Shown here piece after piece: positions 1 through 4,897 of a DNA stretch of 35,547 bases. The notes beneath the pieces are model-generated. The model was not told the origin of the DNA. It did not search any database and worked only from the letters and a program-made list of their open reading frames with translations. The position numbers and the translations under genes were made by a program. This stretch comes from a virus, in IMG/VR virus record IMGVR_UViG_3300046777_002287, positions 1-35,547 of that record; one strand, given 5' to 3'. The first letter of the stretch is position 1; every line of letters begins with the position of its first letter.

Positions 1-141
1 CCCCCATTAAGCCCGTAAAGAGTCTCATCCACCCCCCTTTCTAAAGCCCCTCTACCTCCTTTTAGCCCCTATCCGAATCCCCCGATACCTGTGCTATTCT
101 GTCGCTATCACCATTGCACTACAGGCCATTTACGGGGCTTT

Positions 142-2460
142 ATGGACGGAAGCAGCGAGATATTAAAACGGGCCTCGAAATTAGTATGGTTCCCACAGAA
201 GGGGCCTCAGGAAGACCTCCTTAAATACAGGAGCGTGCCGGAGATATTGTTCGGAGGAGCCCGAGGTGGTGGCAAAACTGCGGCTCTTCTAGGGGATTTT
301 GTAAGTGACGTTTCGGTTTATAAGCAGCACTGGATTGGGATGCTCTTCCGTAGGACTTACCCAGAACTAGAGGAGGTGATTCGACAGAGTTTCGAGTTTT
401 ATCCCCAAACCGGTGCTTCTTATAATGCGAATGAGAAGGTTTGGAAGTGGCCGAATGGGGCTAAATTGTACTTGAGGTTTATGGGGCACCCAAGAGATGC
501 CGCCAATTATCAGGGGCATCAGATGTGCCTTGTTCTCGGAGAAAAGGTTCTTACTCGAACGGGCTCTAAAGCTATTGAGGATTTACGCGTTGGCGATTTA
601 GTAATGACAGGGAGCGGATACCATCGAGTCCTTGGTATAACCGCCCCTGTTGATAAGCCATGCGTTAAGGTTCAGAAGTCTGACGGAACCTTTCAGGTAC
701 ATCCTGTAGACCACGAGATTTTATGCGATTCGGGTTGGCAGTCATATTCATCTCTTGTGGGTATAACCTCCAAAGAGATTCAAGAGAAACTCCAAGAATT
801 TTACACGCTTCCTTCCGTGGATGCGCTTGCAAGATGCGTAAAACGTGTTCCTTTGGTATCGAAATTGGAGGGACAAACTTCCAACGGATCTTGTGAAGTT
901 TGCAAGTCTTCCGAATTGTCTCGTGAGAACATTTTAACTTCTTTGAGGCGGTTTGTAGGGAGATTTTTGGGTCGGCAGCAGCAGCAATTACAGCACTCAC
1001 AAAGGCTGGATTATAAATCTTTGCCCACTGTTTTTGATGCAAAGAACTGTGTGCCGAAGTGTTTTCCATCACCTGCAAATTTTCAAGTCGATTGTCATCT
1101 TTCTGCTCGTTTACATGATGAACAACCTCCTTTGGAGAGAGAAATCGACCAAGATGCATTTCCATTACCAAACGGTGCTGAAAAACCCCGCCTGAATTGT
1201 TGCAGCGAGGATGTTCAGGACAATACTCATATATGTAACCATTCTCACTTTTCCAAGTACCCGCACCCTTACGTCGGACTGGAACTTCCGATGGCGTGGG
1301 AAAATTCACTAGAGGCATGTTCATTCTCCTATGTAGGGGTTAAGACGTGCGTGGACATACACGTTGAATCTGTTAACAATTATATTTCAGCATCTACAGG
1401 GTTTTTAAACAAGAACTGTTGGATTGGATTTGACGAATTGGGGAACTTTGCCACCGATGAGGGGTTCACCCAGATGATTGCATGTTTGAGAAGCCCTCAC
1501 GATGTGCCGCATAAGCGGATACGGTGTACTGCAAACCCGGGAGGCGTGGGCCATGGATGGGTTAAAGCGCGTTATGGGATAGCCGAAAACCCTCAAGGCT
1601 ATAAGCTCCTAGAGCAAGACACCGGACTTCATAGGATGTTCATTCCTTCTAGAGTCACGGATAACCAAATTCTGATGAAGGCCGACCCGACCTATGTTCA
1701 AAGGCTTCACGAGATTGGGAGCCCTGAGATGGTTCGGGCGTGGTTGCACGGGGATTGGGATGTGGTGGCCGGAGCCTACTTCCCTGAGTTTAGCCAAGAA
1801 CACGTTATTGATGCGATTGACCCCGATGATATCCCCAATCACTGGAAGATTTACAGGGCATACGACCATGGGACCTATCACCCGTTTGCTGTGCTCTGGT
1901 ACACGTATGCTGGAGAGGACTGGAGGGGCATCAAAAAGGGCTCAATTGTCATTTTACGAGAATGGTACGGTGGGAATGATAAAGATGAGGGGTTAAAAAT
2001 GTCTCTTGTTGACATCCGAGACGGCATAACAGAGCGAGAGTCGACAATTAAAAGAAGGATTGAGCCAGGGCCTGCTGATAACCAGATATTTGAGAACCAT
2101 GGAGGTCAGAGTATTGCCGATGCGTTGGCAATTGCAGGCGTGTACTTTTCAAGAAGCGATAAGTCTCGTATTCCGGGCTGGAACCAGATACGGATGAGGC
2201 TAAGAGAGAAGAGTTTGCTGTTTACTCGCAGCTGTAAGCACTTGCTTCGAACCTTTCCGATGCTTCAGCACGATGATAGAAGACCGGAGGACGTGGATAC
2301 GCAAGGAGCCGACCATTTAGCAGACGTACTCCGCTATATTTCAATGCAATGGCCGATAATTCCACGGTTTGACAAGAAGAAACGCCGAGATCCGAATGCA
2401 GTAACCTATTCGGATTTGGTGGAAGCAGTGGACGATGTGAGTAATCGGTGGCGGATTTAA
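142..2460 (+). CDS. terL: Terminase large subunit precursor with an in-frame intein
   Basis: ATPase-nuclease motor that packages DNA into the prohead. The precursor has 772 residues. Walker A GGARGGGKT lies at residues 38-46 (253-279). An intein fills residues 129-425, and Walker B WIGFDE follows at once at 427-432. The C-terminal RNase H-like nuclease shows the usual acidic residues in RAYDHG (D575), GPADNQ (D646) and GADHLAD (D724). After splicing the enzyme would have 475 residues, a normal TerL length. I chose ATG 142, just after a weak GGGG; an in-frame GTG at 91 would add 17 residues that do not resemble TerL. The intein separates the two Walker motifs, so an unspliced product should be inactive. 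A small-terminase-like gene lies at the far end of the window (35116-35469) and would be directly upstream on a circular map. Confidence 0.95.
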   Translation: MDGSSEILKRASKLVWFPQKGPQEDLLKYRSVPEILFGGARGGGKTAALLGDFVSDVSVYKQHWIGMLFRRTYPELEEVIRQSFEFYPQTGASYNANEKVWKWPNGAKLYLRFMGHPRDAANYQGHQMCLVLGEKVLTRTGSKAIEDLRVGDLVMTGSGYHRVLGITAPVDKPCVKVQKSDGTFQVHPVDHEILCDSGWQSYSSLVGITSKEIQEKLQEFYTLPSVDALARCVKRVPLVSKLEGQTSNGSCEVCKSSELSRENILTSLRRFVGRFLGRQQQQLQHSQRLDYKSLPTVFDAKNCVPKCFPSPANFQVDCHLSARLHDEQPPLEREIDQDAFPLPNGAEKPRLNCCSEDVQDNTHICNHSHFSKYPHPYVGLELPMAWENSLEACSFSYVGVKTCVDIHVESVNNYISASTGFLNKNCWIGFDELGNFATDEGFTQMIACLRSPHDVPHKRIRCTANPGGVGHGWVKARYGIAENPQGYKLLEQDTGLHRMFIPSRVTDNQILMKADPTYVQRLHEIGSPEMVRAWLHGDWDVVAGAYFPEFSQEHVIDAIDPDDIPNHWKIYRAYDHGTYHPFAVLWYTYAGEDWRGIKKGSIVILREWYGGNDKDEGLKMSLVDIRDGITERESTIKRRIEPGPADNQIFENHGGQSIADALAIAGVYFSRSDKSRIPGWNQIRMRLREKSLLFTRSCKHLLRTFPMLQHDDRRPEDVDTQGADHLADVLRYISMQWPIIPRFDKKKRRDPNAVTYSDLVEAVDDVSNRWRI
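665..1318 (-). CDS. HNH homing endonuclease encoded antisense inside the intein
   Basis: A 217-residue protein on the strand opposite to terL, fully inside the intein. The N-terminal third matches phage HNH homing enzymes: HRLVMEMHLGR, then VVHHVNEQKDDNRLENL, then paired His (HSSLH), with the HNH core at about 1039-1177. Two helix-turn-helix-like segments follow (ISLQTASKKLKCSHETIRKT and KEACKILGVSLESLWRL), as expected for a DNA-binding tail. The last 30 residues lie opposite intein block B and look like read-through to the first stop. I start at ATG 1318 because AGGAG lies 7 nt upstream; an ATG at 1324 would leave only 1 nt. A TATAAT is found 61 nt upstream of the start. Likely role: cleave intein-free terL and spread the intein. 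Function is from family knowledge; expression is inferred. Confidence 0.88.
   Translation of the reverse strand: MPLVNFPTPSEVPVRRKGAGTWKSENGYIYEYCPEHPRCNNSGGVFQHRLVMEMHLGRFLSPKEVVHHVNEQKDDNRLENLQVMENTSAHSSLHQKQWAKIYNPAFVSAVIAAAADPKISLQTASKKLKCSHETIRKTCKLHKIRWKFVPPISIPKEHVLRILQAHPRKEACKILGVSLESLWRLYPQEMNMTANPNRIKSRGLQDVPERFRQTSEP
1379..1408 (-). promoter_or_regulatory. Candidate promoter for the antisense HNH gene
   Basis: On the minus strand, TTAAAA (1403-1408) is followed after 18 bp by a perfect TATAAT (1379-1384). Transcription would start near 1372 and reach the AGGAG/ATG of the HNH gene after about 50 nt. The -10 box lies opposite the codons for NNYI of intein block F, so the same bases would serve splicing and promoter function. 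The -35 is only 4/6, so this is a candidate. Confidence 0.45.
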
Positions 2461-2542
2461 GCTCTTTTCATTTTAAGGCAATATCAGATACCCTTATCGC
2501 ATGTGGTTTGAGCGAGAATTCTCTACATGGGGTTAAAGCGGG

Positions 2543-4897
2543 ATGGCTGAGTACGAAAGCGACGACAAAGACAAAGAGCATCCCCTGCACACCGAGATAC
2601 GACGGTGGAAAAAGGCGCGTGAGCGTTACTATGAGATGGCAAGGCGCAGCGAGCAGCTGTATGCCGGAGAAGATTATAGTCCCTACGTTGAAAGACCTGC
2701 ACAATTGAACGTGTTCTGGTCGATTGTTAATACCCTAAAACCTGCCCTTTACGCTCAACCTCCTAAGCCGGAGATATTTAGGCGATACCCGTCAAAGGAC
2801 ACCACAGCCCGTTTGGGAAGCCAGATTCTAGAGCGTTGCACACGTTTCCAAGTGGAAGTATCGGGGTTCGATGCCGCCGTATCACGTGCCGTTGATGATT
2901 ACCTCGTCGTGGGCCAAGGTGCCCTTTGGGTACGTTACGAGCCAAAAATAGGCGTAGAAGTTCCTAAAATTCGAGTTCAAGAGTTGCCCGAGTCCCCTGC
3001 CCCTATGATGGGCCAAATGCCTGGAATGCCTCCAATGGGTATGGGCGAGGAGATGGGCGGCGAACAAGAAGGGCCGGAAGCTCCCGAAGCAGGTGAAGCC
3101 CCTGAAGGTTATCCAGAAGCACCGGAAGGCCAAGAACGGTATGTCGATGAGATGGGGCAACCTGTAGACCCTAGCCTCGTAAAGCAAGACGATGAAGGCT
3201 ATTACATTGATGGCGAGCCCGTTGAAACGCTTATCGATGAGCGATGCGTAGTTGATTACATCCACTGGACGGATCTGCTGTTTGAACCAGCAAGAACTTG
3301 GGCCGAAGTACGCAAAGTAGCCCGGAAGACCCATATAACTAAGAAAGAGTTTAAGGAGAAATTCGGCGAAGATGCTTACGTTAATTATCGCAACGCGCAG
3401 GAAGCGGCGCAAGAAGACGCGGAGAAGGAAATAAACAAGGGCCGTATCTGTGTCTATGAGGTTTGGTGCAAGGACTCCAATAAGGTCTATTGGTTAGCAG
3501 AAGGGCACAATGAAATCCTAAAAGAGGACGAACCTTACCTTACCTTTGATGAGTTCTTTCCCTGCCCTGAGCCTTTATTCGCTACTTTGACCACCGGACT
3601 TATCCCAAGACCCGATATCTGTTTCTACCAAGACCAGCAAGAGACGCTTAATCAGCTTTGCCAAAAAGCCCAAGATATCGCCAGATACATAAAGGTGCTT
3701 TCGATATCTAGCAGCGAAAATCCAGAGCTAGATAACATACTAAGAAAGCCAAACGGCACTCATATTCAGCTTTCTAACTTCCAGATGTATCTCCAACAGG
3801 GCGGCGTAAAAACCGCACTGGAAGTACTTTCAATGGCCGACCATGCGGCGATTTTGAGAGTGCTGCATGAAGCCATGGAGCAAGAAAAGCAGCAGATATA
3901 CGATATCACGGGTATCTCTGACATTGTACGCGGTACTTCTCGTGCTTCCGAAACGTTAGGGGCGCAACAGATAAAGACTCAATACGCGATGAGTCGAATT
4001 AGCGACAGACAGCGAAAAGTTGCCAAGTTCTGCCGCGATGTGGTCGCACTAATAGCGCAAGTCATCAAGAACCACTTCCAATCGCAAACCATGATAAAGA
4101 TGGCAGGTGTCAGCAACGACCCTGAAATAGAAGAGTATTTAGGCGGCGTAATTGACCTACTTCGCAACGATACGCAAAGCGATTATCGCATTGATATTGA
4201 GACAGATTCGACTACGTTTGCTGACCAAGAAGCTGCAAAACAATCTGCAATTGACCTAACAAATGCATTAGGTAATTTGTTCAACGTATTACTTCCACAC
4301 GCTCAAGCGATTCCGCAGTTGATGCCGGTAATTAACGAGATAACGCTGTACACGACAAGCCAGTTCGAAGCAGGCAGAGAGATTAAGGGCAAGCTCGAAA
4401 AGGCTCTCGTGGAAGTTGAAAACGAAATGGAGAAAGCAAAACAAGAAGCTAAAGCCATTGAAGAGCAACAGCGGCAAATGCAAATGCAGCAGATGCAACA
4501 AGGCATGGACGGCCAAAGCCAAGAAAACGCGCAAGCTCAACAAGAAATGCAACAAGCCCAAGCGCAAGCCGACTCCCAAGCTCAGCAAATGGCGATGGAG
4601 CAACAACTAGCGCAAATGGACGCTCAGTACAAAGCTCAAATTGAGAATTTAAAACTCTCAATGAAGGCACAAGAATTGCAAGTTAAGCAGCAGCTAGAAG
4701 CCCAAAAGATTGCAAGCAAAGAGCAAATTGAAGCTGCTAAACTTCAGACAAAGCGCGATATCGAAGAAGCAAAACTTCGTGCGTCACAAGTTTCTGAGCG
4801 TCAAAGAGAAATCTCAAAAGTGATTCAAGCCGACCAAAAGAATCAGACGGAAGTAAGAAAAGCGGCGATTAAAGAGTTATCACCTAAGGGGATATAA
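2543..4897 (+). CDS. Portal protein
   Basis: A 784-residue protein directly after terL, the normal place for the portal, the dodecameric ring through which DNA passes. The N-terminal region (LNVFWSIVNTLKPALYAQPP, then SQILERCTRFQVEVSGFDAA) and the middle part (YQDQQETLNQLCQKAQDIAR, IYDITGISDIVRGTSRASET) fit the large podovirus/P22-like portals. Two parts stand out. Residues about 149-209 are a Met/Gly/Pro/Glu-rich insertion of low complexity. Residues about 622-784 form a Gln/Ala/Lys/Glu-rich coiled coil, which may extend into the capsid like a portal barrel. The gene follows terL after 82 bp in which I see no gene, and its stop overlaps the next start (TAATG). Confidence 0.88.
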   Translation: MAEYESDDKDKEHPLHTEIRRWKKARERYYEMARRSEQLYAGEDYSPYVERPAQLNVFWSIVNTLKPALYAQPPKPEIFRRYPSKDTTARLGSQILERCTRFQVEVSGFDAAVSRAVDDYLVVGQGALWVRYEPKIGVEVPKIRVQELPESPAPMMGQMPGMPPMGMGEEMGGEQEGPEAPEAGEAPEGYPEAPEGQERYVDEMGQPVDPSLVKQDDEGYYIDGEPVETLIDERCVVDYIHWTDLLFEPARTWAEVRKVARKTHITKKEFKEKFGEDAYVNYRNAQEAAQEDAEKEINKGRICVYEVWCKDSNKVYWLAEGHNEILKEDEPYLTFDEFFPCPEPLFATLTTGLIPRPDICFYQDQQETLNQLCQKAQDIARYIKVLSISSSENPELDNILRKPNGTHIQLSNFQMYLQQGGVKTALEVLSMADHAAILRVLHEAMEQEKQQIYDITGISDIVRGTSRASETLGAQQIKTQYAMSRISDRQRKVAKFCRDVVALIAQVIKNHFQSQTMIKMAGVSNDPEIEEYLGGVIDLLRNDTQSDYRIDIETDSTTFADQEAAKQSAIDLTNALGNLFNVLLPHAQAIPQLMPVINEITLYTTSQFEAGREIKGKLEKALVEVENEMEKAKQEAKAIEEQQRQMQMQQMQQGMDGQSQENAQAQQEMQQAQAQADSQAQQMAMEQQLAQMDAQYKAQIENLKLSMKAQELQVKQQLEAQKIASKEQIEAAKLQTKRDIEEAKLRASQVSERQREISKVIQADQKNQTEVRKAAIKELSPKGI

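Follow-up and report, generated by a model that had tools for sequence, protein, structure and literature searches.

The 35,547-base virus record analyzed here (the window) belongs to a tailed phage. Its plus strand carries the gene for the terminase large subunit (terL) together with portal, capsid, tail and amidase genes, and its minus strand carries genes for a DnaB-type helicase and for replication initiation. Adjoining the portal and capsid genes, terL is a late-type gene. Its product matches the PHROG terminase large subunit family (E 8e-30) and Pfam Terminase_6N, and intein-free relatives are 93-99% identical to it in their best segments. An in-frame insertion splits the gene at the Walker B motif of TerL (GHQM/C...NKN/CWIGFDEL; slashes mark the junctions). 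The features of the locus are as follows.

142-2460, plus strand: open reading frame of the TerL precursor, exteins at 142-525 and 1417-2460
526-1416, plus strand: predicted intein of 297 aa, Cys1 (526) to Asn297 (1416), with the +1 Cys at 1417-1419
526-564, plus strand: intein block A (CLVLGEKVLTRTG), from the translation and the intein alignment
685-723, plus strand: intein block B (GTFQVHPVDHEIL), His63 invariant in the intein alignment
856-1242, plus strand: sense overlap loop, intein residues 111-239, an open frame only, predicted to be disordered
1342-1386, plus strand: intein block F (KTCVDIHVESVNNYI), Asp277, Asn284 and Tyr286 invariant in the intein alignment
1396-1419, plus strand: intein block G and the +1 Cys (TGFLNKN/C), from the translation and the intein alignment
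665-1318, minus strand: HNH homing endonuclease gene, 217 aa, from Pfam, PHROG and a structural model, conserved in 77 distinct sequences
1061-1180, minus strand: HNH core (HNH_3, Pfam PF13392, E 6.4e-10)
764-961, minus strand: two helix-turn-helix-like segments (about 884-961 and 764-841), weak matches, presumed to bind DNA
1326-1330, minus strand: likely Shine-Dalgarno sequence AGGAG, 7 nt before the HNH start, from the sequence and a codon-resampled null
1379-1408, minus strand: putative sigma70-like promoter TTAAAA-18-TATAAT (10/12), within intein blocks F and G

The intein and the reading frame on its opposite strand

Uninterrupted homologues, the key splicing residues and a HINT fold identify the insertion at 526-1416 as an intein in TerL, predicted to self-splice. 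Residues C1, H63, D277 and N297 are invariant in the family's intein alignment and the +1 residue is C, S or T; the penultimate residue is a non-canonical Lys, where His is usual. In the AlphaFold model both ends adopt the HINT fold (pLDDT about 95), and the model's best match in the PDB is to the structure of the gp41-1 intein (prob 1.00, E 2.7e-6). Pfam Hint_2 matches the start of the intein weakly (E 1.8e-4, below the curated cutoff). One could envision instead a self-splicing group I or II intron with an antisense endonuclease gene, the open sense frame being incidental. Phage introns often carry HNH genes. Group I introns with an endonuclease gene in antisense orientation have been described (PMC9548176). 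However, no Rfam intron matched window 1-2600 at E up to 1, a result on which we discarded an RNA intron; moreover, the intein blocks and the HINT fold coincide with the exact ends of the insert, and the sense frame, for which an RNA intron would have no need, is open in 75 of 75 copies. We give this explanation almost no credence. The sole sub-threshold Rfam match, to OxyS at 606-707 on the plus strand (29.9 bits vs a gathering score of 75), is most likely due to chance.

Inteins normally carry an in-frame endonuclease domain between blocks B and F. At this position of the window intein we found no in-frame endonuclease motif: the sense frame at 760-1320 matches no Pfam family, and most of intein residues 111-239 lie below pLDDT 50 in the model. 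The minus-strand frame matches PHROG HNH endonucleases (E 7.8e-19). Its product is modelled with confidence (pLDDT 89.5), with I-HmuI as the best, albeit weak, PDB fold match (prob 0.91, E 0.06). The helix-turn-helix-like segments appear as helices in the model and as sub-cutoff matches to RWP-RK, HTH_17, HTH_23 and NUMOD1. A PDB sequence search with the HNH profile returned only helix-turn-helix matches to a zinc regulator, which we took to be spurious. H48, H68, N76 and other catalytic-region residues are invariant in 26 diverse copies, and those of the active region are so even in copies only 30-46% identical to the window's HNH. The catalytic core, together with sporadic occurrence and transfer relative to the host gene, places the protein among the HNH homing endonucleases, and its predicted activity would be to cut intein-free terL alleles. 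Translation likely starts at 1318, because the upstream ATG at 1324 (219 aa; minus-strand ORF 1324-665) is changed in L002/L026, which carry the same intein, and because AGGAG lies 7 nt before 1318.

A chance antisense frame is ruled out by homology, by the substitution pattern (see below) and by codon shuffling: synonymous shuffles of the window's HNH gene create a mean of 9.7 sense stops, and none of 1000 leaves the sense frame open. A first reading made from the letters of the window without database searches (hereafter, the sequence-only reading) had proposed an intein retaining blocks A, B, F and G, a sense frame that stays open across about 765-1318 without endonuclease motif, a full HNH protein of 217 aa with its core and two helix-turn-helix-like segments on the minus strand, and a phase in which the third codon position of each frame faces the second of the other. 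Each of these points was borne out by the analysis, the helix-turn-helix segments by weak matches.

A mobile family in viral metagenomes

To define the family, IMG/VR was scanned twice. The first scan used a profile of the antisense HNH protein, blind to the sense frame. It returned 80 loci, of which 59, including nearly all the closest matches, have the HNH gene antisense inside a long terL ORF and in one register; the more distant, free-standing HNH genes do not show this layout. The second scan used the N-terminal half of the sense-strand intein alone, and 75 of the 80 loci returned carry an antisense HNH (two of them decayed), always in the same register. In this register, position 1 of the antisense codon lies opposite sense position 1, position 2 opposite 3, and position 3 opposite 2. 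Together the scans yielded 133 loci at the same terL site, but as they share contigs, the number to use is that of distinct DNA sequences, 77, which form 44 clusters at 70% identity and 27 at 50% protein identity. The inverted insert suspected in the window is thus present in other TerL inteins (about 130 related loci in IMG/VR), and its occurrence on many independent metagenome contigs rules out a one-off or an assembly artefact. Outside IMG/VR, tblastn searches of the INPHARED cultured phages with TerL, the intein N-terminal half and the full intein revealed no antisense-HNH intein; the most promising candidates turned out to be an unrelated helicase-like P-loop gene and a TerL that has an apparently ordinary in-frame LAGLIDADG intein. 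Plasmids gave distant HNH cores only, and bacterial genome contigs distant free HNH genes only.

All 75 full-length copies are free of sense stops, and in none of them is any other alternative frame open. When the HNH codons of 31 clusters were shuffled synonymously, the mean number of sense stops ranged from 3 to 15 and the frame remained open in 0-1.8% of trials. In the family register, a Phe whose next residue is Ile, Met, Thr, Asn or Lys cannot be encoded without a sense stop. Such pairs, common in free-standing control HNH genes, are absent among the 473 Phe residues of the family.

The intein is sporadic among close relatives. When the TerLs of the window and its close relatives were compared at the site, 12 of 14 lacked the intein; only the window and L006/L026 carry it. 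The two share the junction GHQM/C, whereas empty alleles read GF, then various residues, then Thr, Val or Ala, a pattern consistent with co-conversion of the immediate flanks. Between the window and L026, the intein differs at 0/27 and 1/14 fourfold-degenerate sites, the exteins at 7/44 and 41/133. Lower divergence at such sites in the single-coding intein parts than in the exteins was seen in each cluster tested. It indicates that movement of the intein postdates the divergence of the host genes.

Other members appear to be losing the homing gene. In L124 and L181 the HNH gene has suffered deletions and stops, and the sense frame is still open. L195/L196 carry, at the same TerL site, a sense-open mini-intein of 146 aa without HNH, apparently a deletion derivative. 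These shortened, decayed copies and the mini-intein are the only ones in which the antisense frame is broken, as expected on loss of a homing gene. It might be argued that the HNH protein serves the phage directly rather than the intein, as a packaging-associated protein or an exclusion nuclease acting on rival phages. In some phages, packaging does depend on an HNH protein (HK97 gp74). In addition, HNH homing enzymes can exclude co-infecting phages (PMC7468147). A direct service of this kind seems unlikely to us, for the gene is absent from most near-identical TerLs, sits within a splicing element that diverges less than the host gene, and is lost in decayed copies that retain the splicing blocks.

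Selection on the two frames

Across the exteins and most of the single-coding intein parts, sense third positions hold 56-95% of the differences between copies (the window/L026 pair has three differences in its single-coding intein parts, too few to count). In the overlap, by contrast, 55-73% of the differences fall at sense second positions, which are the third positions of the antisense codons. Changes that are silent in the HNH protein and alter the sense residue occur at 1.3-2.7 times expectation. HNH-altering changes are mostly depleted; in the most diverged pairs, changes altering both residues are near expectation. Since the pattern favors HNH-silent changes, selection in the overlap acts to maintain the HNH protein: the antisense gene is under purifying selection, and the sense frame is kept open with its amino acids mostly drifting. 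The sequence-only reading, which had placed both strands under selection, was right as to a conserved antisense protein and a stop-free sense strand, but the sense residues are for the most part unconstrained.

Two frames that overlap may conserve one another passively. The antisense ORF could therefore be a passenger, an unused HNH gene that landed in the intein and owes its conservation to constraint on the sense frame. This is very unlikely, as it is the sense amino acids of the overlap that change more, with wobble at antisense third positions; furthermore, the active region is invariant across the copies that retain as little as 30-46% identity to the window's HNH, and a Shine-Dalgarno sequence is enriched (see below). 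The converse idea, that the sense middle is a functional domain that goes unrecognised and is overlapped by the HNH gene, draws on the few sense residues conserved in the overlap, such as an HPY motif also found in the HNH-less mini-intein of L195. We consider it improbable: the sense middle is predicted to be disordered, corresponds to a recognisable domain in none of the homologues examined, changes its amino acids faster than the antisense frame does, and can be deleted, as in L195/L196 and L124. The retention of HPY as a loop motif in the L195/L196 mini-intein suggests that this motif may have a role in the sense protein.

Probable expression signals of the antisense gene and relation to known systems

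If the HNH gene is expressed on its own, signals should lie upstream of it, inside the C-terminal blocks of the intein. The window has a perfect TATAAT on the strand complementary to the NNYI codons of block F; 18 nt upstream, opposite block G, is TTAAAA, a weak -35 hexamer (4/6). Two members (L032 and L064) have TTGACA-16-TATAAT without mismatch and three others (L031, L036 and L079) TTGATA-16-TATAAT. Because the encoded residues themselves favor a promoter match, a null was built by redrawing the codons according to the usage of each gene. The summed promoter score is 217 vs 196.7 +/- 4.2 after resampling (z 5.0, a value that, like other z-values here, overstates independence because family members are related); 1% of permuted and 0.75% of random hexamer pairs give a z at least as high. 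The match is strong only in lower-GC lineages and at chance in high-GC members. For the Shine-Dalgarno sequence the summed score is 108 vs 64 +/- 9.8, somewhat flattered in that the start codon of some members was chosen with a Shine-Dalgarno sequence in view. These data point to a likely ribosome-binding site and a probable, putative promoter within the C-terminal blocks. That endonuclease expression would be separate from that of the terminase, another element of the sequence-only reading, is supported by codon choice favoring both signals but remains a supposition.

Taken together, the data suggest a mobile TerL intein whose HNH endonuclease is expressed from the minus strand, independently of the late expression of the terminase, a reading to which we assign a probability of nearly nine in ten. 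The plus strand would be translated through the intein as part of TerL, and the HINT ends would splice the precursor, excising all 297 intein residues, with the sense overlap carried along as an unstructured, stop-free linker or floppy loop. The minus strand would yield the endonuclease by separate translation from a dedicated ribosome-binding site, with transcription most likely driven by a dedicated promoter. During coinfection, the enzyme would cut intein-free terL alleles, and repair of the cut gene would copy the intein in. An independent promoter could allow the HNH protein to be made early, while phage genomes replicate and recombine, since its synthesis would not depend on transcription of terL. 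Such decoupling would make sense because homing is useful during replication, whereas terL is a late-type gene. It is tempting to speculate, though we would bet slightly against it, that the DNA of the C-terminal blocks serves three purposes at once, encoding the splicing residues (NHYI and L(I/V)NKN), providing the -10 and -35 elements of an early antisense promoter, and setting an endonuclease schedule independent of the late host gene. The NKN found in place of the canonical HN may result from the dual use for splicing and promoter.

In the usual view, splicing and homing by an intein are the work of a single polypeptide, the rate and timing of the endonuclease being tied to the host protein. 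The present family departs from this rule: it is a protein-splicing element whose mobility gene occupies the complementary strand, and the register is the same in the 27 clusters. In the literature searched (open-licence papers only) we found no description of an intein with an antisense endonuclease. The nearest descriptions there concern group I introns with an antisense endonuclease gene and the out-of-frame HNH insertion of ShiLan (see below). The arrangement explains TerL inteins whose sense middle seems meaningless, and its full, decayed and mini copies offer a natural series for the homing cycle. Antisense expression and dual-strand coding in phages become directly testable. As gene callers discard overlapping antisense ORFs, genes of this kind probably escape them.

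Several known systems invite comparison. Bifunctional in-frame inteins such as PI-SceI likewise combine HINT with an endonuclease between blocks B and F; the window endonuclease, by contrast, is of the HNH type, and its gene lies on the opposite strand, has start signals of its own and specifies a separate protein. I-HmuI-like enzymes resemble the window protein in having an HNH core followed by DNA-binding helices, with weak global fold similarity; the gene of I-HmuI, however, sits in an intron in sense orientation, whereas the window gene is antisense in an intein. Fractured genes, reportedly described by Dassa et al. in 2009, have split inteins with a free-standing endonuclease between the halves. 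There too the endonuclease is expressed apart from the splicing domain, but the host gene is broken, whereas here a single sense ORF is continuous. Group I introns with antisense homing endonuclease genes, invoked in the sequence-only reading, are indeed described, for instance Didymium squamulosum L2066 (PMC9548176). They are self-splicing mobile elements with the endonuclease on the other strand; RNA splicing, however, needs no open sense frame, whereas in the protein-splicing window element both strands are stop-free. In phage ShiLan, a methylase gene contains an insertion with an HNH in another frame of the same strand (published 2025), with no detectable splicing domain or ribosome-binding site and without splicing (PMC11855218). 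Like the window element it hides an HNH in an insertion that leaves the host frame open, in a phage gene and with sporadic distribution, but the window HNH is antisense and within a HINT intein.

Other inteins were encountered in the course of this work. RecA/UvsX-like genes in L190 (1868-4318), L197 (463-2586) and L198 are split within an intein, with a GIY-YIG-like ORF between the halves; L190 and L197/L198 look like the fractured-gene split type. TerLs of sister phages have P-loop inteins (GGGK/...HN/T; L007, L009, L010 and L019, in the 1001-3577 region, 88-2661 in L009) with apparent in-frame LAGLIDADG motifs. They seem to be ordinary bifunctional in-frame inteins and, like the window intein, are sporadically present in the same host gene. 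At the C-terminal TerL site, L006, L016, L017 and L018 carry a mini-intein of about 130 aa without endonuclease; L006 therefore has inteins at more than one site. A further TerL intein at the C-terminal site (ADH/C...HN/CADV) occurs in L013 (2470-3111, plus strand), L014 (2398-3057) and L204-L208. In these sister phages an HNH-like ORF of 213-219 aa lies within it in the +1 frame of the same strand, and the intein frame runs through that stretch without a stop. In codon shuffles the frame stays open in less than 2% of trials in 4 of 5 copies and in 11% in L204. One TerL gene family therefore hosts in-frame, out-of-frame and antisense endonucleases.
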